A program made the translations under genes and the position numbers. Under the pieces are notes generated by a model that saw only the letters and a list, made by a program, of their open reading frames with translations, was not told where the DNA came from and did not search any database. Below, in pieces: positions 3,957-29,689 of a DNA stretch of 34,756 nucleotides; the first letter of the stretch is position 1, and every line of letters begins with the position of its first letter. The stretch comes from an uncultured Alphaproteobacteria bacterium (GTDB taxonomy: Bacteria; Pseudomonadota; Alphaproteobacteria; SP197), in contig CALIUG010000270.1 of NCBI GenBank assembly GCA_938048755.1, positions 1 to 34,756 of the forward strand, in the 5' to 3' direction.

Positions 3957-5246
3957 TCAGCCGTTGGCTTCGAGTACGCGACCGGCAAGATAGAGCGAGC
4001 CGCATATCAGAACACGTGACGGCCCCTGCTCGGCAGCAAGCTGCTGCAAGGCGACCTCCACGTCCGAAGCGCTTGAGGCCTCAAGACCTGCATCCTTGAG
4101 AACACGCAACGTGTCTTCTGCCGCCAGCGTGTTTTTCTCGCCGGGGATCTCCACGGCAATGGCGCGCCGCACAAAGGGTGCCAGGGGTTTGATGAAACCC
4201 GTCGGATCCTTGGTGTTCATCATGCCGACAACAAGATCAAGCGGACGATCCGCCCAGAATTGCGCCATGTCTGCCAGCACCAGACCTGCTGCGGGATTGT
4301 GCCCGCCATCCAGCCAAAGCTCAGTATCGGGACCCAGCATTTCCTTGAGACGCCCCTTGTGGAGCTGCTGCATCCGCGCTGGCCATCGGGCAGTTGTGAG
4401 TCCCCGGGCCAGAGCCCCCCCGGAAAGATCAAAGCTCTCGAGTCGCCGAAGCGCAGCGATAGCCGTTGCTGCGTTAAGCGGCTGATGCGGGCCCCACAGA
4501 CAGGGCATGGGCATGGCCAGGCGTTCGTCACCATCGACCATCACAAAGCCATCGGTGGATTGCTCGACCACGTCAAAGTCCGTGCCCGAGACGAATGCGG
4601 GCGAGTCCAGGGCAGCAGCGCGCGCAACCATGACCTCACGTGCTTCTGATACCTGGGGGCCAATGATGACCGGCACACCGGGTTTGATGATTCCGGCCTT
4701 CTCGCCGGCGATCTTGGCAATCGTATCGCCCAGGAACTGCTGATGATCGAGCGAGACCGGTGTGATCACCGTGGCCAGAGGCCGGTCCACGACATTGGTT
4801 GCATCGAGACGGCCACCAAGACCCGTTTCAAGCAGCAAAATGTCAGCCAGCACACGTGAGAACGCAAGAAAGGCCGCAGCCGTGGTGACTTCGAAATAGG
4901 TAATAGGCTCGCCGCCGTTGATCTGTTCACACTCATCAAGCAGTTCGGCGAGATTGGCCTCGCTGATGATCTCTCCATCAAGCTCTACGCGCTCGTGAAA
5001 TCGGACAAGGTGGGGCGACGTGTAGACATGAACCCGATATCCCGCAGCAATCAGAACCGCGCGCATGTATGCAATTGCGCTGCCTTTGCCGTTGGTGCCC
5101 GCAACATGCACGACAGGCGGAAGACTGTGGTGGGGGTTCCCGAGTTTGGCGAGGATGTCGTACATCCGGTCCAGCGACAGATCGATCAGCTTGGGATGAA
5201 GCTGCATCAACCGTTCAAGCAGGACGTCACTCGATGCAGTGCTCAC
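3957..5246 (-). CDS. folC: Dihydrofolate synthase / folylpolyglutamate synthase
   Basis: A 429-residue Mur-ligase-family enzyme that adds glutamate to dihydropteroate and to folates using ATP. The ATP loop HVAGTNGKGSA spans about residues 47-57, and the folC-typical YTSPHL, LLETGLGGRLDATNV and LDGGHNPAA motifs follow in order. The start is a GTG at 5244-5246 overlapping the accD stop by 4 nt, so translation is probably coupled. It is the last gene of the long minus-strand run. Its stop abuts the stop of the glutamine-synthetase gene, the two forming the palindrome TGATCA. Confidence 0.95.
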   Translation of the reverse strand: MSTASSDVLLERLMQLHPKLIDLSLDRMYDILAKLGNPHHSLPPVVHVAGTNGKGSAIAYMRAVLIAAGYRVHVYTSPHLVRFHERVELDGEIISEANLAELLDECEQINGGEPITYFEVTTAAAFLAFSRVLADILLLETGLGGRLDATNVVDRPLATVITPVSLDHQQFLGDTIAKIAGEKAGIIKPGVPVIIGPQVSEAREVMVARAAALDSPAFVSGTDFDVVEQSTDGFVMVDGDERLAMPMPCLWGPHQPLNAATAIAALRRLESFDLSGGALARGLTTARWPARMQQLHKGRLKEMLGPDTELWLDGGHNPAAGLVLADMAQFWADRPLDLVVGMMNTKDPTGFIKPLAPFVRRAIAVEIPGEKNTLAAEDTLRVLKDAGLEASSASDVEVALQQLAAEQGPSRVLICGSLYLAGRVLEANG

Positions 5247-6154: not shown

Positions 6155-6981
6155 GACCGGGCATTCCTCACACCGTGGGCGAGATCACGCGCGAGGCTGA
6201 GCACGCTATCTACACAAGCCTGCGTGCCGTTACCGTCCGCGTCCAGATTGTCTTCAACCGCCTTGCAGAAGACCGTGCCGACAACCGCCGCATCCGCGAC
6301 ACGCGCAATATCAGCAGCCTGGTCGGGCGTGCGGATGCCGAAACCGACCGCAATGGGTAGGTCCGTTCTGGCCTTCAGGCGTTGCACGGCTTCCCCGACC
6401 GCCCTGGGATCGGCTGAGCCTGCACCCGTGATGCCGGTGATCGACACGTAATAGACAAACCCCGAAGCGTTCCCCAGAACAGCGGGAAGGCGTTTGGCAT
6501 CCGTGGTCGGTGTTGCCAGGCGAATCCAGTTCAGACCCGCATCCAGCGCCGGCACGCAAAGCTCGCTGTCTTCCTCGCTGGGGAGGTCGACGATGATCAG
6601 GCCGTCCACGCCCGCTTCGCGGGCATCCCTCAGAAAGGCATCGTTCCCGTAGGAATAGATCGGATTGTAGTAACCCATCAGCACGACCGGCGTGTCGCTG
6701 TCGCTTTGACGCAGATGACGCACCAGATCAAGCGTCTTGCGCAGGGTCATACCCTTTCGGAGAGCACGCTGGGACGCGACCTGAATGGTCGGGCCATCCG
6801 CCATGGGGTCTGTGAACGGCATGCCGATCTCGATGACATCAACTCCGGCACCCGGCAGGCCATCGACGATCTGACAAGACAGATCAAAGTCGGGGTCACC
6901 GCCGGTCACAAAAGCAACGAGCCCGGCCCGCCCTTCTTCGCGAAGCGCCGCAAAACGGCGATCGATCCTGGTATCGCTCAC
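6151..6981 (-). CDS. trpA: Tryptophan synthase alpha chain
   Basis: A 276-residue TIM-barrel subunit that cleaves indole-3-glycerol phosphate to indole and glyceraldehyde 3-phosphate. Catalytic E51 (VIEIGMPF) and D62 (DPMADGP) are present, as are the phosphate-binding segments FGIRTPDQA and VVGTVF. It works as the alpha-beta complex with TrpB, encoded immediately upstream with a 4-nt overlap, so equal expression through coupled translation is likely. Confidence 0.97.
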
Positions 6982-8189
6982 AGCTTCACTCCCAGCGCTT
7001 CGGCAACGGCAAAGACATCCTTGTCACCGCGTCCGCACATGTTCATGCAGATGAGATGATCCCTGGGCAGGTCCGGCGCAATCTTCATGACATGAGCCAA
7101 GGCATGGGCCGGCTCGAGTGCGGGAATGATTCCCTCCAAGCGCGTGCACAGCTGAAAGGCCTCAAGTGCCTCATCATCGGTGGCAGCGACGTAGTTCACG
7201 CGACCGACATCGGCCAGCCAGGCGTGTTCCGGGCCGATGCCGGGATAATCGAGGCCTGCGGAGATCGAATGTGGTTCGATGATCTGACCGTCATCGTCCT
7301 GGAGCAGATAGGTCCGCATCCCGTGCAGAACACCCGGACGGCCGCCAGCAATCGAGGCGGCGTGTTTGTCGGTATCAACGCCAAAACCCGCAGCCTCGAC
7401 GCCATAGATGTTGACGTCCTTGTCGTCCAGGAACGGATGGAACAGGCCCATCGCGTTCGACCCGCCACCAATGCAGGCCACCAGTGTGTCGGGAAGGCGC
7501 CCTTCGGCTTCCAGCATCTGTTCCTTGGCCTCACGACCAATCACAGACTGGAACACACGTACCAGTTCCGGATAGGGGTGCGGACCACCCACGGTGCCGA
7601 TGATGTAGAAGGTCGATTCGACGTTGGTCACCCAATCACGCAGCGCCTCGTTCATGGCGTCCTTGAGGGTGTGGGAGCCGGACGTCACCGGCACCACCTC
7701 GGCACCCAGAAGCTTCATGCGGAAGACATTTGGCGCCTGTCGCTCGATATCCTTGGCGCCCATGTAGATGATGCATGGCAGACCAACTTTGGCGCAGACC
7801 GTCGCGGTCGCAACGCCATGCTGGCCGGCACCGGTTTCCGCGATGATGCGCTTCTTGCCCATGCGCTTGGCCAGAAGGATCTGGCCGACAGTGTTGTTGA
7901 TCTTGTGCGCACCGGTGTGATTCAGCTCATCACGCTTGAAGTAGACCTTTGCGCCGCCCAGATGCTCGGTCATCCGTTCGGCGTAGTAGAGCGGGCTGGG
8001 GCGACCGATATAGTGCTTCGCCCAATGATCGATTTCGGCCTGGAAAGAAGGGTCATTCTTGGCGTCTTTCCAGGCCTGTTCCAGGTCCAGAATGATCGGC
8101 ATCAAGGTTTCGGCGACGTAACGTCCGCCGAACATGCCAAAGTGGCCCTCTTCATCAGGACCAGCGCGATAGGTGTTGACCGATTCCAT
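6978..8189 (-). CDS. trpB: Tryptophan synthase beta chain
   Basis: A 403-residue PLP enzyme that condenses indole with serine to give tryptophan. The PLP lysine is K96 in [10 protein letters not shown], the catalytic glutamate is E118 in AETGAGQHG, and the phosphate loop GGGSNAMG and C-terminal GRGDKD are intact. The N-terminal [11 protein letters not shown] is standard for TrpB1. It starts with ATG at 8187-8189 behind purine-rich GGACAGGGA. It overlaps trpA by 4 nt and follows trpF after an 86-nt gap in which no regulatory element was recognised. Confidence 0.97.
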
Positions 8190-11421: not shown

Positions 11422-12333
11422 CTAGTTGAATTCAGGTTGCCAGAGCGCCAGAAGGCCGTCAAGGGTAAGTGGTTCTGGTAGAACGCTTTTTCCGGTCTCA
11501 CGCACCATTTCCAGGTACCATGGAAGCTCTTCTTCCACCTCGACATTGCGAACCGGTAGACCCTCACAGATCTCGTGTTGCGCCAGCAACCAGGCACGTG
11601 CTTCGCGTTCACCACCCAATTCATCAATCAGGCCGTTTTCCAGTGCCTGTGTGCCGGTGTAGATTCTGCCGTCTGCGAGAAGTTCGATTGCCGCGCGATC
11701 AAGGTCCGGGCGTCCGTCATCGACGATACCGACAAACACCTTCTGCATGTCGTCCACAACGATCTGGGCCCACTCTCTGGCCTCCGGCAAGGTACGCTCG
11801 AAGGGCGACGGATTGGCCTTGAGGGGGTCGCTCTTGATGTTCTCGAACGTGATGCCGAGGTTGTCGAAGAAATCAACGACATCTGTGGTCGGGAAGATAA
11901 CGCCGATCGAGCCGGTAATGGTGCCGCGGCGCGCAATGATGTGTTCGCCAGCCATGGCAATCATGTAGCCGGCAGATGCGGCAACATCGTCCATCACAAC
12001 AACAACAGGCTTCTCTTCGGCAACCCGTTGCAGCGCAATGAAGAGCGCCTCACCACCGACAAATGTGCCGCCGGGACTGTTGATACGCAGGATCAGCGCC
12101 TTGGCATTGCCGTCCTGTGCCACATCTTCGATCGCCTCGTCGCGAACACGGTCCGACTCAATCACGCCGTTGACATCAAGCAGAGCAACATAGGCACCTG
12201 ATGCCTCCCCCTGAACCCGGCCGAAAGCGAGGATGCCCACAACAATGAGGGCCACGACAAAGAGAATGCGCCAAAAAAGAAGGCGGCGCCGCAACTTCTG
12301 ACGCTCAACCAGGGTTTCCGCGTCATGGGTCAT
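11422..12333 (-). CDS. sppA: Signal peptide peptidase SppA (S49 family)
   Basis: A 303-residue single-domain membrane-anchored serine protease that degrades cleaved signal peptides. One N-terminal membrane helix spans about residues 19-38. The nucleophile is S120 in VAASAGYM and the probable general-base lysine is K172 in SDPLKANPS; LRINSPGGT provides the usual oxyanion-side motif. The start is the ATG at 12331-12333, with AGGAGG 8 nt upstream at 12342-12347. A GTG two codons earlier would be too close to that site. It lies between rpsA and ihfB on the same strand, as in many alphaproteobacteria. Confidence 0.94.
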   Translation of the reverse strand: MTHDAETLVERQKLRRRLLFWRILFVVALIVVGILAFGRVQGEASGAYVALLDVNGVIESDRVRDEAIEDVAQDGNAKALILRINSPGGTFVGGEALFIALQRVAEEKPVVVVMDDVAASAGYMIAMAGEHIIARRGTITGSIGVIFPTTDVVDFFDNLGITFENIKSDPLKANPSPFERTLPEAREWAQIVVDDMQKVFVGIVDDGRPDLDRAAIELLADGRIYTGTQALENGLIDELGGEREARAWLLAQHEICEGLPVRNVEVEEELPWYLEMVRETGKSVLPEPLTLDGLLALWQPEFN

Positions 12334-12366
12334 CAGCACCGCCTCCTTTGTCAGCCAAGTCTTTTC

Positions 12367-14193
12367 TTAAGACTTCTTTTCGTCTTCCTCAGCAGCTGTC
12401 TCCTCTGCTGCTTCAGCCTCGGGGGCAGCCTCTTCGGCAACCTCCTCGACTTCGGCCTCAGGCTCCTCACCTGCATCGTCGTCTTCATCGGTTCCCTTGG
12501 CCGCCATCGCCGCACCCAGGATATCGCCCAGAGTGGCACCGCTGTCGGCAGAACCGTATGTCTTCATCGCCTTCTTCTCTTCCTCGATCTCAAGCGACTT
12601 GATGGAGAGGGAGAGACGACGGGTACCCTTGTCGATCGCGGTCACCTTGGCATCCAGGCGGTCGCCTTCGGCAAACCGGTCGGGACGCTGGTCACCACGC
12701 TCACGGGCAAGCTCGGCCTTGCGGATGAAACCAGGCAGGGTGTCATCGACCAGGACTTCGATACCGTTGTCCATGATCTTGGTCACCTGACAGGTCACCA
12801 CCGAACCACGCTGCACGCCGTCCATGGCGCCGGCAAGCGGATCGGCCTCGAGCTGCTTCACGCCCAGGCTGATGCGCTCTTTCTCGATATCGACATCGAG
12901 CACCTTTGCCTTGACCTGATCGCCCTTCTTGTAGTCCAGGATGGCTTCTTCGCCGGTCTTGTCCCAGCTGAGGTCCGACATGTGGACCATGCCGTCGAGA
13001 TCGTTGCCGAGATCGATGAACAGACCGAATTCGGTGATGTTCTTGATCTCGCCTTCGACCTGACTGTCGGCAGGATGCTGACCGATGAAGATGTCCCAGG
13101 GATTTTCCTGGGTCTGCTTGATGCCCAGACTGATGCGGCGCTTGTCGGCGTCGACATCGAGGACTTCGACATCCACTTCCTGGCTGGTCGAGACGATCTT
13201 GCCGGGATGTACGTTCTTGCGCGTCCAGCTCATCTCGGACACGTGGACGAGACCCTCGATCCCCGGCTCCAGCTCCACAAAGGCGCCGTAGTCGGTGATG
13301 TTGGTGACGCGGCCCTTGAAGCGTGCGCCCATGGGATACTTGGCGGCGACGCCTTCCCAGGGATCGGCTTCCAGCTGCTTCATGCCAAGGCTGATGCGCT
13401 GGGTTTCCGGGTTGAAGCGGATGACCTGCACACGAACCGTCTGGCCGATGCTGAGCGCCTCGGTGGGATGGTTGATGCGACGCCAGGAAATGTCCGTGAC
13501 ATGGAGCAGACCGTCGAGGCCGCCCAGATCCACGAACGCACCGTAATCGGTGATGTTCTTGACGACACCGTCGAGCACCTGGCCTTCGGTCAGGCCGGCA
13601 ATCAGGTCGGCGCGCTGATCCGCACGCTCGTCTTCCAGCACGGAACGGCGCGAAACCACGATGTTGCCGCGGCGGCGATCCATTTTCAGGATGCGGAATT
13701 CGTGCTCATCGCCCATCAGCGGTGTGACATCGCGCACGGGGCGGATATCCACCTGGCTGCCCGGCAGGAAGGCCAGTGCGCCATTCATGTTGACGGTGAA
13801 ACCGCCCTTCACACGCTGAACGATATAACCCTTGACCCGGTCGTTCGTCTCGAACGCCTTCTCAAGCTGGTTCCAGACCTCTTCACGCTGTGCCTTCTCG
13901 CGCGACAGGACGATCTCGCCATTGCGGTTTTCCAACCGCTCGACAAAAACCTCGACCACGTCGCCAACACCCACGCTTGCCTTGCCACCCGGAGGAACAA
14001 ACTCACGCAGGGCCACGCGACCCTCGGCCTTGAGGCCGACATCAATCAGGATCGCATCGCCCTGAACGGACACGACGGTGCCGTTGACGACTGCGCCTTC
14101 GATGATATCGACGCGGCCAATAAACTCGTTGAAAAGGTCTTCAAAATTCTCTTCGGACGCAGATGCATCCTGCGCCACGCTTGTGTCGGTCAT
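12367..14193 (-). CDS. rpsA: 30S ribosomal protein S1
   Basis: A 608-residue ribosomal S1 protein that binds mRNA and helps 30S initiation. It shows the six-repeat layout: two degenerate N-terminal S1 domains, then repeats with the recurrent ITDYGAFVDL / ITEFGLFIDL and VHVSEMSW / LHVTDISW motifs. The C-terminus adds an unusually acidic tail rich in Glu and Ala (roughly the last 50 residues), common in alphaproteobacterial S1 but absent from the E. coli protein. The ATG at 14191-14193 is chosen for the AGGAGA site at 14198-14203 and the usual S1 N-terminus. The frame continues upstream only through the leader hairpins. Confidence 0.97.
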   Translation of the reverse strand: MTDTSVAQDASASEENFEDLFNEFIGRVDIIEGAVVNGTVVSVQGDAILIDVGLKAEGRVALREFVPPGGKASVGVGDVVEVFVERLENRNGEIVLSREKAQREEVWNQLEKAFETNDRVKGYIVQRVKGGFTVNMNGALAFLPGSQVDIRPVRDVTPLMGDEHEFRILKMDRRRGNIVVSRRSVLEDERADQRADLIAGLTEGQVLDGVVKNITDYGAFVDLGGLDGLLHVTDISWRRINHPTEALSIGQTVRVQVIRFNPETQRISLGMKQLEADPWEGVAAKYPMGARFKGRVTNITDYGAFVELEPGIEGLVHVSEMSWTRKNVHPGKIVSTSQEVDVEVLDVDADKRRISLGIKQTQENPWDIFIGQHPADSQVEGEIKNITEFGLFIDLGNDLDGMVHMSDLSWDKTGEEAILDYKKGDQVKAKVLDVDIEKERISLGVKQLEADPLAGAMDGVQRGSVVTCQVTKIMDNGIEVLVDDTLPGFIRKAELARERGDQRPDRFAEGDRLDAKVTAIDKGTRRLSLSIKSLEIEEEKKAMKTYGSADSGATLGDILGAAMAAKGTDEDDDAGEEPEAEVEEVAEEAAPEAEAAEETAAEEDEKKS

Positions 14194-14212
14194 GTTGTCT
14201 CCTGGATTCCTT

Positions 14213-14318
14213 GGGAAGCGTTTTTCGCTTCCTCCCCGTGCCCGTTGGGATTTCACGCCGATCAGCGTGAGACAGACACAGGACTGGCCTTTCTGGCCAA
14301 ACGCCAGCCTTTCGGCTG
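14213..14318 (-). promoter_or_regulatory. Structured rpsA 5' leader with four hairpins
   Basis: Read on the minus strand, four stem-loops follow each other between the promoter and the ribosome site: CAGCC-GAAA-GGCTG (14318-14305), TGGCC-AGAAA-GGCCA (14299-14285), TCACGC-TGATCG-GCGTGA (14270-14253) and GGAAGCG-AAAAA-CGCTTCC (14232-14214). S1 is known to repress its own translation in enterobacteria through mRNA structure. A similar role here is inferred from the hairpins alone. Confidence 0.5.
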
Positions 14319-14327
14319 AGCGCGCGA

Positions 14328-25024: not shown

Positions 25025-26257
25025 TCAGACGTCTTCTTCCAGCTTCTCAGGCGCCACGATTTCGGGCGTGTCATCGACGACTGCAGGCTTGGGGAAGATC
25101 ATGAACCGAACGATCTGATCTTCGATGTTGATGCGAAAATCATCGAGATCGTGAACGGTGACGTCTTCCCGAACCGCCCATTCATGGGACCCGTCAATCC
25201 CGTCAATGAACTGGATGTTGATGCGTATCTTGTCGCCCACCAGTCTGAAACTGCCCTCGATCAGGTAGTCAACATCAAGGATCTTGGCGATCTGGGTGAT
25301 CTCGTAGTCTTCGTCCTCGAACTTGAACGCGGATCGTCGCGAAATCACGGTGAAGTCGGCGCTTTGCGCCAGGTCGGTTGTCAGGTCCTCGACAAACCCG
25401 TCTGCGTGACCATCCAGCTCATCTTCATCGGATTTTCCAAAGACCTCCAGCGGCAGGATGACCAGAGCGCGCGCATCGCCGGCATCCGTCGCAGCAACTG
25501 AGACCGTCTTTTTGGTTGTTGTCAGAACCGGTTTGACAACGCTGATCTCTGGCTCACTCCTGGTCTCGATGACATCCACGACCTTGGCCAACGATGCCAC
25601 CAGAGATACCGCCACGGCGAGATTCATGACCAGACGTCTGGTGCGCCGCGGCATCTTCCAGGCCGGCATGCGCTCGCTGCCGGTCTCCTTGGTCAGGGAC
25701 CAGACCGACAGGGTCGCCTGAATATTCTTGAGATCCTTGGCACCCAGATTCGTGTAACGCCAGCCGGGCACCTGGGTGATGTGGCGATAGATATCTTCGG
25801 ACAGACAGATACCGTCGGGCGGCGAGAGCGATTCGAGCCGGGCGGCGATGTTCACTCCGTTGCCGAAGATGTCGTCGGCACGCGAAATGATGTCGCCCAG
25901 GTGAAGGCCGATGCGAATGCGCAGGGGGTTTTCGTGCCCCTCGGTTTCACGCCATTGTGCCATCGCATCTTGCCAGTCGACGGCACAGGCTACGGCAACC
26001 ACCGCACTGGGAAACTCGACAAGGAAACCATCGCCCATGCGTTTGACGATGCGGCCGCCATGTCTGGCGACAACAGGTACCACGAGAGACTCGTCCCATT
26101 CCTGCATCCGGGCATGCGTCCCCGTCTCGTCCAGTTCCATGAGTTTGGAATAGCCGACGACGTCCGCCGCAAGGAACGCTGCGAGTCTTCGTTCCACGAT
26201 ATCCGCTCTGTGAATTTTCGCTCGAGCCCTATCATAGCTGAATGGAACGCCTGCCAC
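25025..26257 (-). CDS. Class III adenylate/guanylate cyclase with membrane helix and TolB-like domain
   Basis: Up to 410 residues. The cytosolic class III cyclase domain comes first: metal-binding D32 ([11 protein letters not shown]) and D76 ([11 protein letters not shown]), then [13 protein letters not shown] with the transition-state N136 and R140. One membrane helix follows at about 209-225. The outer part (265-380) contains VILPLEVFG and a [36 protein letters not shown] pattern typical of the TolB N-terminal/FlgO-like domain attached to many such cyclases in Alphaproteobacteria. It likely makes cAMP in response to an unknown signal. The start is uncertain: GTG at 26257, or GTG at 26195-26197, which gives the common [12 protein letters not shown] beginning. 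Confidence 0.88.
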
Positions 26258-26930: not shown

Positions 26931-26969
26931 AAAAAAAATCCCGGCAGGCGCATGACGCTCTGCCGGGAT
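26931..26969 (-). terminator. Terminator of the radical SAM maturase
   Basis: A 10-bp perfect stem ATCCCGGCAG / CTGCCGGGAT (26938-26947 with 26960-26969). On the minus strand it is followed by eight T (the A run at 26931-26938), a classic intrinsic terminator 18 nt after the maturase stop. Confidence 0.88.
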
Positions 26970-26986
26970 CTTGTCGTCGAATTTGA

Positions 26987-28237
26987 TTAGCGTGTCTTGC
27001 CGAGTTCCACCGCGGCGGCTGAAGCCTGGGGCATCAGGGCCGGATGATCGTCGACAATGGGATCAAGGCCCATTTCGTCACGCAGGATGGTCACGGTCTC
27101 CTTGACGCGATAATCGCAGAACAGCGTTTCCGTGCCGGCCATCGTGCCAAGTTCGAACTGCTTGTTGCCCGGCGAGCCGCCGGCACAGACATCGAAAAAG
27201 GCGCATGATTTCTTGCACGCGCTGTAGCCCTCGATGATCTCGTTCATGTAGCGCGCGAACATCGGGTTGGCGAAGGCATCGAGATAGGCATTTTCGTGCA
27301 CGTTGCCGAAGACGAACGGCTCACCGTTCATCTCCATGGCATGCAGTTCGGGCGAAAACGATGAGAAGTCACCGTCATGTCCGACCGTGATGATGCGGAA
27401 CGGCACGGTCTGCTGTGTCTTCATCAAACGCGGCTTGCCGGCATTGGAGACGAACTTCTCGTACTCGCGAACCTCACGAATGTTGAGCCGCCCCGCAGCG
27501 TGCCGCTTGTAGCACTCGCGCGTGAACTCTCGGAAGAGATGGCGCGTGCCGGTGTTGTGGTCGAGCGAGGTATCTTCGTGATTGCCTTCGAACTCCTCGA
27601 CGTTGAAGCCGACACTGGTCATGCCGACCTCTTCGAAGAAGTCGAGTGCGGTTTCGTAGTCCTGAAGGAAGTCCTTGGTCACCACGGCGATGACATGGAA
27701 GGGAATGTCATTTCTGTGCAGCGTTTCGATGCCCTTCATGACCGACTTGTGCGTGCCCTTGCCGGACCGCGTCTTGCGATAGGCGTCATGAATGTGCTGT
27801 GGCCCATCGATGCTGACACCCATGCGGGTATTCATGGACTTGAACAGGTCACACCAGGAATCGGTCACCAGAACCGCATTGGACTGGAAATTGTGGGTGA
27901 CCTCGACGTCCTTGCAATGTTTCTGCACCAGCTTGTCGGCTTCCCGGTACCAGTCCTTTTCCATCACCAGCGGCTCGCCGGCATGCCAGACGATGGAGAA
28001 CTTCTTGGCCACCAGGCCCGATTCCATGGCCCGCACAATCGCCTTTTCGGCGGTTTCCAGCGGCATGCGGTCCTTCTTCGTGCGCCCGGGCAGATAACAG
28101 TAAGCGCAATCAAGGTTGCAGAACGGTGTCGGCTGCAGGACCAGGAGATTCAGCGGACCCACACTGTGGGGTGGCATACGCTTCCGCTTGGGCTTTGGTG
28201 CAGATGCAGCCTGCGGCTCTGATGCAACTTGTATCAT
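26987..28237 (-). CDS. Radical SAM/SPASM peptide maturase, GrrM/OscB-like (probable cyclophane former)
   Basis: A 416-residue radical SAM protein. The S-adenosylmethionine cluster motif CNLDCAYC supplies C40, C44 and C47, within LVLQPTPFCNLDCAYCYLP. GEPL and the SIDGP segment follow in their usual places. The C-terminal SPASM-type domain has C341, C345, C351 and C374 in SACKKSCAFFDVC-AGGSPGNKQFE-TETLFC. From memory these blocks resemble the GrrM/OscB maturases that make cyclophane crosslinks in glycine-rich peptides; anaerobic sulfatase maturases are distant kin. No peptide-binding RRE domain was noticed. The ATG at 28235-28237 is preferred (GGAG at 28248-28251). A GTG at 28265-28267 would put the start inside an inverted repeat. 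It lies directly downstream of the Trp-x-Asp precursor, its likely substrate. Confidence 0.88.
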   Translation of the reverse strand: MIQVASEPQAASAPKPKRKRMPPHSVGPLNLLVLQPTPFCNLDCAYCYLPGRTKKDRMPLETAEKAIVRAMESGLVAKKFSIVWHAGEPLVMEKDWYREADKLVQKHCKDVEVTHNFQSNAVLVTDSWCDLFKSMNTRMGVSIDGPQHIHDAYRKTRSGKGTHKSVMKGIETLHRNDIPFHVIAVVTKDFLQDYETALDFFEEVGMTSVGFNVEEFEGNHEDTSLDHNTGTRHLFREFTRECYKRHAAGRLNIREVREYEKFVSNAGKPRLMKTQQTVPFRIITVGHDGDFSSFSPELHAMEMNGEPFVFGNVHENAYLDAFANPMFARYMNEIIEGYSACKKSCAFFDVCAGGSPGNKQFELGTMAGTETLFCDYRVKETVTILRDEMGLDPIVDDHPALMPQASAAAVELGKTR

Positions 28238-28266
28238 GGCATAGTTTCTCCGTGCGAGTATGCGCA

Positions 28267-28300
28267 CCGGAACGGTTCAACGGTTATCAAACCGTTCCGG
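28267..28300 (-). promoter_or_regulatory. Long inverted repeat between precursor and maturase genes
   Basis: An 11-bp perfect inverted repeat (28267-28277 with 28290-28300) with a 12-nt loop. The motif AACGGTT occurs twice in tandem on the plus strand and either copy can pair with the same AACCGTT, so two hairpins compete. No U tract follows on the minus strand, so it is not a standard terminator. It may limit or regulate transcription into the maturase, or bind a protein. Confidence 0.5.
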
Positions 28301-28396
28301 CTGCATATCGTCTTTTCATCTTCGACCGCCAATCAGGCAGTCGTCTTACTTGCTAAGGCCGGATCAGATCCGGTCAGGCGTTCGCGGGGTGCGCGA

Positions 28397-28630
28397 TCAG
28401 TTCCACCAATCGCCCCAGTCACCCCAATCGCCCCAGTCGACCCAGTCACCCCAGTCGGCCCAGTCGTACCAGTCACCCCAATCGCCCCAGTCATCCCAGT
28501 TTGACCAATCGTCCCAGTCATACCAGTCGTACCAGTCACCCCAATCGCCCCAGTCACCCCAGTCACCCCAGTCCGCCCAATCGTACCAGTCGCCCCAGTC
28601 ACCCCAATCGACCCAGTCACCCCAGTCGTA
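28397..28630 (-). repeat. 9-bp tandem coding repeat (Trp-x-Asp tract)
   Basis: Twenty-six 9-bp units of the form TGG-NNN-GAY/AAY. Third positions of the Gly and Asp codons vary freely between units while Trp and Asp/Asn stay fixed, which points to selection on the peptide. A longer block is repeated: about 30 nt including GTACCAGTCACCCC recurs near 28465 and 28528 on the plus strand, showing growth by internal duplication. Confidence 0.85.
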
Positions 28631-28912
28631 CCACTGGGCAAGATCGGTTTCGGTGCCGGTTACGCCACTGTCGTGCACGATGCTGGCAATATCGCCAGCC
28701 TCATGGGCCGTGACAATGTTGGCAAGTGCGGACATGGTCGCTGTCTTGCTGTCACCGGTCGAGGCTTCCGCCTTGGCCACCAGGCCGATGGCGGCCGTGG
28801 CCAGACCGAGCGAAATACCCAGATAGGCGCACTGCTTCAGATAGGCCGGAACGGAGAGTTTCTTCTCCTTCACCAGGCCTGAGAGGTTTGTAACGATGCT
28901 TTTCTCAATCAT
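28397..28912 (-). CDS. RiPP-like precursor with 26 tandem Trp-x-Asp/Asn units
   Basis: A 171-residue protein. Residues 1-93 are a leader: a Lys-rich start, the block [10 protein letters not shown] (23-32), a hydrophobic stretch (about 29-45) ending AKAEA-S, which fits signal peptidase cleavage after A50, then a polar linker ending TETDLAQ. Residues 94-171 are 26 consecutive triplets of the form W-x-D or W-x-N with no spacer, running to the stop. x is Gly in most, otherwise Tyr, Ala, Val, Asp, Ser or Trp, and the last unit is WWN. Such aromatic-x-Asp/Asn triplets match the motif crosslinked by cyclophane-forming radical SAM enzymes, one of which is encoded just downstream. ATG 28910-28912 is chosen by the match to the second precursor and by GGGG upstream; the frame is open further to 28999. 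An unrelated repeat or structural protein is the alternative. Confidence 0.85.
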
Positions 28913-29240
28913 CTTAATCCCCGTGGTTCCAAGTCTTATGACCCAGACGTTGGTTGTTGATCTACGGCGTGATCCGAAAAATTCCGCATCGCCATCCACA
29001 TTCCGTTAATGCCCCCGATAGCGGACTTCCGACTATCAGTCATTGAACAGTATGGTTCATTTTGGAGCCCAAGACGACCCGCAATCTGCATCGAAAGTGA
29101 AACCGGATAGAAACGTGACCGGATCGCAAACTCTCGTGCGGTTAGTCGAACCATGATTTTCCCCTCAATCCCCCGGAACAAGCCGTTTCCAGCGAGCCCC
29201 ACTTGTTTTGCGTTACGTGTTCTCTTCACGCCCGGAGCCG
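28913..29240 (-). other. Region between the two precursor units: leader or promoter of precursor 1
   Basis: This 328-bp stretch separates the terminator of precursor 2 from precursor 1 and must hold the promoter of the latter. It contains an imperfect inverted repeat at 29017-29037 (arms GATAG-CGGA / TCCG-CTATC with one bulged base) and a possible small ORF (28936-29153). No -35/-10 pair was convincing to me. Confidence 0.4.
28936..29153 (-). CDS. Possible small ORF of unknown function between the precursors
   Basis: A 72-codon ORF starting MVRLTAREF. Its main support is GAGGGG 7 nt before the ATG at 29151-29153 and its place on the coding strand of the cluster. It matches no family I recognise and has no sequence likeness to the precursor leaders or the maturase. 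Composition (Arg, Ser and Met rich, no clear hydrophobic pattern) is not strongly protein-like, so a chance ORF in a long 5' leader is about as likely. Confidence 0.25.
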
Positions 29241-29280
29241 GAAAAACCTACGCCCGCGGCACATTCGGCGCCGCGGGCGT
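29241..29280 (-). terminator. Terminator of the second precursor unit
   Basis: An 11-bp perfect GC-rich stem ACGCCCGCGGC / GCCGCGGGCGT (29250-29260 with 29270-29280), 9-nt loop, followed on the minus strand by AGGTTTTT. It lies about 50 nt past the TGA that closes the repeat tract of the second precursor. Confidence 0.82.
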
Positions 29281-29332
29281 GATGGTCGTCACAATTTTCA
29301 GGTGTCAGAAACCTGACATCACCAGGTCGGGA

Positions 29333-29689
29333 TCAGTTCCACCAGTCACCACAGTCGCCCCAGTCGTCCCAGTTATACCAGTCGCCCCAATCACCCCAGT
29401 CGACCCAGTCACCCCAATCGTACCACTGGGCGAGGTCGGTTTCCGCACCCGTCGTTGCGGTTTAACCAAGCTGCCGGATTTCAAGGGCTGCGGACGCAGG
29501 AACAATCCGTTCCAGTGTGTCGAGGGCCGTATCGGTTGAAGCTTGCGCTGGCGCCGTCACACCGATCGCAACCAGTGCAGCAGAAATCGAAACACCCAGA
29601 TAGGCACATTGGCGCAAATAGGCTTCGATCGTCAGTTTTTTGGCGTTGACCAGGCTTGCAAGCCCGCCAACCACGTCATTCTCGATCAT
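29333..29689 (-). pseudogene. Second Trp-x-Asp precursor, split by an in-frame stop
   Basis: This paralogue has a leader that aligns with precursor 1 without gaps over the first 50 residues: conserved KKL, AYLRQCAYLG, and AQA-S cleavage-like site after A50. Translation stops at TAA (29462-29464) after 75 residues. The same frame then continues with TTGAETDLAQ and ten triplets ending WWN and TGA at 29333-29335. The first five triplets are identical to those of precursor 1. One unit has Cys in place of Trp (CGD). The single in-frame stop, with no frameshift, suggests a recent nonsense mutation; stop readthrough or production of leader alone is possible. It has its own ribosome site (GGGA before ATG 29687-29689) and terminator. 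Confidence 0.75.

Follow-up and report, generated by a model that had tools for sequence, protein, structure and literature searches.

A selected Trp-x-Asp ladder encoded beside a GrrM/OscB-type radical SAM gene in an uncultured alphaproteobacterium

We analyzed a 34,756-nucleotide stretch of DNA, hereafter the window, from an uncultured bacterium of the alphaproteobacterial lineage SP197 (assembly GCA_938048755.1, contig CALIUG010000270.1, positions 1 to 34,756 of the forward strand). Its minus strand carries a gene for a radical S-adenosylmethionine (SAM) enzyme with a SPASM region, classified below with the GrrM/OscB maturases, and upstream of it two small paralogous genes, precursor 1 and precursor 2, which encode leaders and tracts of Trp-x-Asp (W-x-D) triplets, with an in-frame stop between the two in precursor 2. 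The analysis indicated that the W-x-D ladder is real and selected, that its gene is linked to that of a maturase from a known family, and that it is extreme among the GrrM substrates examined. What is new here is Asp in place of Asn, a ladder lacking spacers and a leader with no detected kinship to GrrA leaders; the enzyme family is already known. The main features are as follows, all on the minus strand.

26987..28237, minus strand: GrrM/OscB-type radical SAM/SPASM enzyme, 416 amino acids (aa) from an ATG, assigned by its TIGR04261 match and conserved cysteines
28397..28912, minus strand: precursor 1, intact, 171 aa (calculated monoisotopic mass of the unmodified full-length protein, 19,623.7 Da), with relatives in genomes G002, G005 and G009
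28400..28633, minus strand: precursor 1 core, 26 contiguous triplets, supported by a codon-phase test and the substitution pattern
28634..28912, minus strand: precursor 1 leader, 93 aa, supported by a six-leader alignment and a profile search
28817-28846, minus strand: block of 10 residues in the precursor 1 leader
28763-28771, minus strand: A-x-A of the precursor 1 leader
29333..29689, minus strand: precursor 2, an interrupted paralogue with an in-frame TAA at 29462-29464 (codon 76) and its tract behind the stop at 29336-29425

The W-x-D ladder and its reading frame

A preliminary description of this DNA had taken both small genes to consist of a leader followed by a tract of triplets. This was borne out for precursor 1, whose core runs through 26 triplets with zero interruptions (24 W-x-D, one WSN and, as the last, WWN) and contains 27 Trp and 26 acidic residues while lacking basic ones, but not for precursor 2, in which the TAA sits after the leader and before a tract of 10 units, so that the open frame is the 75-aa leader alone. 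One unit of that tract reads CGD, with Cys replacing Trp. An in-frame stop was present in all three genomes having precursor 2, at three different places: besides the TAA of the window, a TAG occupies codon 70 in G002 (from 4555 in its locus, L018) and another about codon 5 in G005 (about 4620-4944 in its locus, L019), where a later start gives a 92-aa open frame with five triplets. The ratio of non-synonymous to synonymous substitution rates (dN/dS) for precursor 2 between the window's genome (G000) and G002 was 0.095, which is not above that of the working genes of the cluster. The simplest reading is that the stops are recent and independent losses; alternatively, precursor 2 might yield a leader-only peptide or be translated by read-through.

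To gauge how often such an array arises by chance, we used a single 39-base pattern of five W spaced by three with D/N between. It was found in 2 of 385 genomes of the class, namely that of the window, where it matched at 26 overlapping places, and another with an unrelated array of 4 units; an Asp-only pattern was found in 2 of 393 genomes of the phylum, that of the window and one with a WHD array. The backwards control pattern occurred in 1/385 class and 4/393 phylum genomes, and repeat DNA as such is therefore not rarer than the control; the frame, rather than the repeat DNA itself, is what matters. Two arrays were rejected as instances of the same system: L026 (WSN WGN WGN WGN), for which a radical SAM open reading frame (ORF) was not seen in its 3-kb locus, and the WHD array L082, for which an enzyme relative was not found in its 3-kb locus.

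Collagen-like genes of viruses likewise contain W-x-D arrays read off-frame (109 viral stretches, 48 of them with 6 or more units), and because of these the coding frame was tested. None of the 109 stretches had relatives of the enzyme, the three matches obtained (L085-L087) being loci of the window's own genome. Two viral contigs, L109 and L182, hold 59 and 53 identical WYD units in one frame, which represent a 9-base microsatellite and not evidence of a gene. The codon-phase test drew on 105 units from four genomes of the lineage, the units within one array being non-independent. TGG was constant at every base in 105/105 units, the third codon of the unit had a constant middle base and a G as first base in 100/105, and variation was concentrated in the x codon and at the wobble position of the Asp codon, which is C in 77 units and T in 28. 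When the same units were read in the hypothetical Gly-X-Thr frame, its third positions varied in 0, 18 and 5% of units, versus 53, 62 and 67% in 70 viral control arrays of at least 10 units each, from which pure microsatellites had been excluded. These controls were picked by NGG at bases 2-3, and the source search demanded T at base 1 in five successive units; such selection biases the viral arrays toward resembling those of the lineage, and they still showed 53% variation at base 1.

The codon phase rules out, with a vanishingly small residual chance, that the true product is a collagen-like Gly-X-Thr protein of which W-x-D is the off-frame shadow. A Gly-X-Thr ORF does exist off-frame in the tract (28333-28641), and viral collagen-like genes do yield W-x-D off-frame, but two of the would-be free third bases of this ORF are T in 105/105 and G in 100/105 units, the remaining one varies in 18%, and the conserved leader lies in the W-x-D frame. 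Comparison of the window with G002 gave 9 synonymous and 0 non-synonymous differences in the first 10 core units, and 22.5 synonymous and 12.5 non-synonymous changes over the whole gapped tract, with synonymous sites saturated. A chance repeat is ruled out by this selection on the units, seen in both codon phase and substitution pattern. The W-x-D ladder is a protein feature under selection. The leader gave dN/dS values of 0.071 against G002 and 0.207 against G005.

The maturase and its linkage to the ladder gene

The radical SAM/SPASM enzyme that had been described by its CNLDCAYC motif and SPASM-region cysteines is present at 26987-28267 on the minus strand. Its ORF extends to 28267 with a GTG start, while the ATG at 28237 is the likelier start by comparison with the start of the L019 homologue. 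The enzyme scored 368.9 bits with TIGR04261, the NCBI model for GrrM/OscB (cut-off, 310), and fell under each model's own cut-off for AmcB, DynA, YhhB and XyeB. The three radical SAM cysteines (CX3CX2C) and five further cysteines were kept in 41/41 aligned rows (the window enzyme, its homologues in L018 and L019, and 38 other GrrM), and by model and cysteines the enzyme is classified as a member of GrrM/OscB. It is the single over-cut-off GrrM found in the window's genome. The nearest solved structures by sequence were anaerobic sulfatase-maturating enzymes (E 3e-17), and a structure predicted from three close sequences was of low confidence (mean pLDDT 32, pTM 0.27).

Matches to precursor 1 were found in 4 of 16 genomes of the family, all from one genus, and a search with the leader profile returned the same 4 genomes among 133. 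The ladder has 29 triplets in G002 and 37 in G005; in G009, precursor 1 meets the contig end after 13 complete units, and no GrrM match was found in that assembly, which leaves it outside the linkage count. Over-cut-off GrrM occurred in 3 of 61 genomes searched (G000, G002 and G005), with a W-x-D gene directly upstream on the same strand in all three, at gaps of 129-153 bases, and G002 and G005 share the window's gene order of precursor 2, precursor 1 and enzyme. Linkage of W-x-D genes with the maturase, on which the preliminary description had staked its proposal, was thus seen in 3/3 genomes found with the enzyme, two of them other than the window's. Counted over the three precursor 1 genes, the lineage has 87 W-x-D and 5 W-x-N triplets, in runs of 26, 29 and 37.

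We then surveyed GrrM genes elsewhere. Over-cut-off GrrM was present in 5 of 385 class genomes and in 2 of 398 phylum genomes, both of which lie within the class set, and in 6/119, 41/75 and 2/15 genomes of three other alphaproteobacterial families. Loci were examined for 38 of the 49 over-cut-off GrrM places outside the window's genus (11 places were without a locus), and these 38 are non-independent, as 30 belong to a single genus within one family, with six more in a second family and two in a third. With the enzyme trimmed, a chain of W/F-x-N/D triplets near the C terminus of a same-strand neighbor was found in 34/38 loci; a looser count on either strand gave 36/38, and a count in which long enzyme starts masked some chains gave 27/38. 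One locus, L057, had no chain in any of the three counts. The triplets beside these GrrM genes, counted with only Asn or Asp as third residue, were 279 W-x-N, 9 F-x-N and 2 W-x-D, with a longest unbroken run of 8 (in genome G295). This aromatic-x-Asn/Asp rule, which recurs across otherwise unlike sequences, provides the best, if indirect, evidence that the triplets may be the substrate.

Known precursors had been described as having spaced motifs and no unbroken ladder, which mostly held but is not exclusive, since eight F-x-N units stand side by side at the G295 locus (L040/L044), which comes from another family, and L037 and L081 each show three W-x-N in a row. The G295 precursor (L044, 5897-6181, plus strand, 94 aa) resembles precursor 1 in that an unbroken ladder stands just before an over-cut-off GrrM (6188-7387) and is missed by TIGR04260, the model for the GrrA/OscA1 precursors; it differs in using Phe and Asn (FPN FPN FNN FPN ...), in having eight units and in its leader. 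Because this ladder fails the model as well, TIGR04260 is narrow. Elsewhere, three precursors of L042/L043 scored over its cut-off of 31 bits, and that of L041 under.

Among plasmids, GrrM was found in 6 records, and precursor 1 in no record (BLAST with the low-complexity filter on). The named plasmids follow the aromatic-x-Asn/Asp rule partially. On pP18_a of Phaeobacter piscinae (L198, 3633-5176), grrM is preceded by a gene whose end is rich in W-x-N and includes contiguous WSN WNN WSN; pP18_a is a conjugative plasmid of a culturable strain. A Nostoc plasmid has a 68-aa gene upstream of grrM with WDN, WND and WGN. On a plasmid of Streptomyces sp. ADI95-16 (L199), the gene immediately upstream of grrM showed no aromatic-x-Asn chain; that grrM is flanked by lantibiotic dehydratase, LanC-like and thiopeptide-type genes.

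These comparisons bear on the idea that the W-x-D gene encodes an acidic repeat protein that is secreted without modification while the enzyme targets something else. The signal-peptide-like leader would suit such a protein, but the linkage in 3/3 genomes with the enzyme and the recurrence of this aromatic-x-Asn/Asp phase next to other GrrM genes make this highly improbable.

Proposed modification of the ladder

Taken with the TIGR04261 score, the W-x-D gene upstream in 3/3 genomes and the W/F-x-Asn triplets beside 34/38 other GrrM sustain the earlier assignment of this locus to GrrM/OscB-type ribosomally synthesized and post-translationally modified peptides. We consider it likely that the window encodes a triceptide pathway of this type, composed of one maturase and one intact precursor. 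In common with GrrM/OscB and GrrA/OscA1 (TIGR04261, TIGR04260), the locus has the enzyme family, a small precursor directly upstream, a hydrophobic leader and C-terminal aromatic-x-Asn/Asp triplets, and the aromatic-x-residue core motif of the triceptide class recurs in all 26 triplets. A review (PMC11002830) reports that OscB links C7 of Trp to the Asn or Asp beta carbon, and that XncB or OscB links C4 of Phe to that of Asn. Because OscB takes Asn or Asp in that account, W-x-D is an accepted motif for a characterized member of the family, and by this analogy the chemistry is probably of a known kind, from Trp to an acidic residue two places on. What stands out is that Asp is used almost throughout, that spacers are missing and that the ladder is so long.

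The genes and their order, the enzyme family, the coding frame, the selection on the triplets and the linkage in relatives are directly supported; the crosslink, by analogy with OscB, and also the number of rings, the order of reactions and export are inferred. Precursor 1 would be made with its leader, and the radical SAM enzyme would cleave SAM and abstract hydrogen at the Asp (or Asn) beta carbon, which would then be bonded to the indole of the Trp two residues earlier, giving one ring per triplet. Because the triplets have no residue in common, up to 26 rings (37 in a relative) would be possible in principle, forming a stiff and strongly acidic chain. The six leaders of the lineage have a common hydrophobic stretch and an invariant A-x-A in their alignment, features that probably direct the product to export by the Sec pathway, through which the leader would take it. 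A surface or metal-binding role of the ladder product is speculative.

Several observations weigh against this pathway. At E 1, TIGR04260 matched neither precursor 1 nor its leader, and it also missed the leader ORF of precursor 2 and the precursors in L018 and L019. The third residue elsewhere is Asn in 288/290 counted triplets, which makes it an extrapolation to assume that an enzyme sharing 33-40% identity accepts Asp. No protease or transporter among the neighbors is clearly part of the cluster. The precedent of TvgB, another radical SAM enzyme, speaks both ways: in favor of the pathway, it modifies a TVGG tandem core at several repeats (PMC9062424); against it, TvgB was reportedly not processive under the assay conditions, so that full modification of 26 sites is not a given.

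How far the precursor departs from known ones can be stated in numbers. Third-position Asp occurs in 2/290 triplets of the GrrA/OscA1 type versus 87/92 in the lineage, and the former have at most 8 unbroken triplets versus 26-37 in the lineage, which is without Gly spacers. GrrA leaders are similar to those of the lineage by eye, and the lineage leader is not matched by TIGR04260 and has no detectable kinship to GrrA leaders in a weak test (hhalign probability 1.2% over 12 columns, with a shallow query profile of Neff 1.6). It looks as if precursor 1 works like a GrrA precursor, yet by model it is not a GrrA/OscA1 member. The suggested new precursor class is fair for the leader and the Asp ladder, although the enzyme chemistry is probably of a known kind. 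No account of W-x-D repeat precursors was found in the open-access literature searched. TvgA/TvgB of Halomonas is alike in having a tandem-motif core modified at repeats by a radical SAM enzyme, and differs in its TVGG motif, in forming cyclopropylglycine instead of a cyclophane and in its partner genes (PMC9062424).

The extent of crosslinking admits two readings. It is possible, though we hold it tentatively, that all triplets are crosslinked, in which case the product would be an exported covalent rod of 26-37 consecutive Trp-Asp cyclophanes, with a length set by repeat copy number; the enzymes making it would be a group that has exchanged Asn for Asp as target, and the rod would act at the surface as a structural or metal-binding material, not as a small antibiotic. 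A further possibility, short of probable, is that the same pathway crosslinks part of the triplets (e.g., near one end, or every other one), the remainder acting as scaffold or spacer and the length reflecting slippage more than function. The different copy numbers among relatives (26, 29 and 37) are as expected of slippage, and TvgB repeats were incompletely modified in vitro (PMC9062424); however, all units of the intact genes have kept the Trp and Asp positions, which does not point to idle units.

Another radical chemistry on the tract, such as a different ring type, epimerization or oxidation, in place of Trp-Asp cyclophanes is unlikely. In its favor, the enzyme is 95% identical to its homologue in L018 and 81% to that in L019 but 33-40% to the 38 other GrrM, and the W-x-D enzymes form a clade of their own (support, 100; tree of 21 rows including the outgroup) whose long branches make its placement unsure. 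Moreover, at 11 positions the 3 W-x-D enzymes share one residue, and 37 or 38 of the 38 others carry a different one. The enzyme nevertheless passed the curated GrrM/OscB cut-off, and the three-residue period fits cyclophane chemistry. Some of these positions could bear on the choice between Asn and Asp: position 284 (426-aa numbering) is Thr in 3/3 W-x-D enzymes and Asn in 38/38 other GrrM, and this Asn-to-Thr change is a candidate, as are His for Leu at 309 and Thr for Asp at 393, all drawn from three enzymes of one clade in which specificity is inseparable from descent. The enzyme gave dN/dS values of 0.050 against G002 and 0.120 against G005.

The ladder is of interest as a natural one in which each unit fits the reported crosslinking rule and which comes in three complete natural versions of different length, together with a shift from Asn to Asp from one group to another within a single enzyme family. 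It makes it possible to ask how radical SAM catalysis copes with dozens of neighboring sites and which residues decide between Asn and Asp. Full crosslinking, if true, would make the product a new sort of rigid, acidic, encoded polymer that is ribosomally encoded, polyanionic and aromatic. In practical terms, the current precursor model TIGR04260 misses ladder-type GrrM substrates.

Locus layout and neighboring genes

On the minus strand, the order is precursor 2 (29689-29333), a hairpin (29280-29250), precursor 1 (28912-28397), a second hairpin (28304-28264), the gene for the radical SAM enzyme (starting at 28237 or 28267 and ending at 26987) and a third hairpin (26972-26935). The hairpins are as follows.

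29250..29280, minus strand: terminator-like hairpin 3' of precursor 2, from the consensus scan and fold
28264..28304, minus strand: strong hairpin separating precursor 1 from the enzyme gene, without a T run (fold of 28262-28396, z -4.6)
26935..26972, minus strand: terminator-like hairpin with a T run 3' of the enzyme gene (fold z -5.6), missed by the consensus scan

Because of these hairpin positions, precursor 1 and the enzyme gene are likely to share one transcript, and precursor 2 to have a separate one. The consensus scan of the region found 3 terminator-like sites versus 3.4 expected and 1 promoter-like site versus 1.2 expected.

The neighbors of the cluster are genes for a methylguanine methyltransferase and an ABC ATPase, a weakly SnoaL-like gene, a tRNA-Arg and a cyclase-domain gene. 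Farther away, a 664-aa ORF (12325-14319, plus strand) gave zero Pfam matches at E 1e-5. The cyclase-domain gene (Guanylate_cyc; 25025-26257, minus strand) matched the "putative peptide modification system cyclase" model at 23 bits, far under its cut-off of 400; it lies near the cluster and is present in L018 too.

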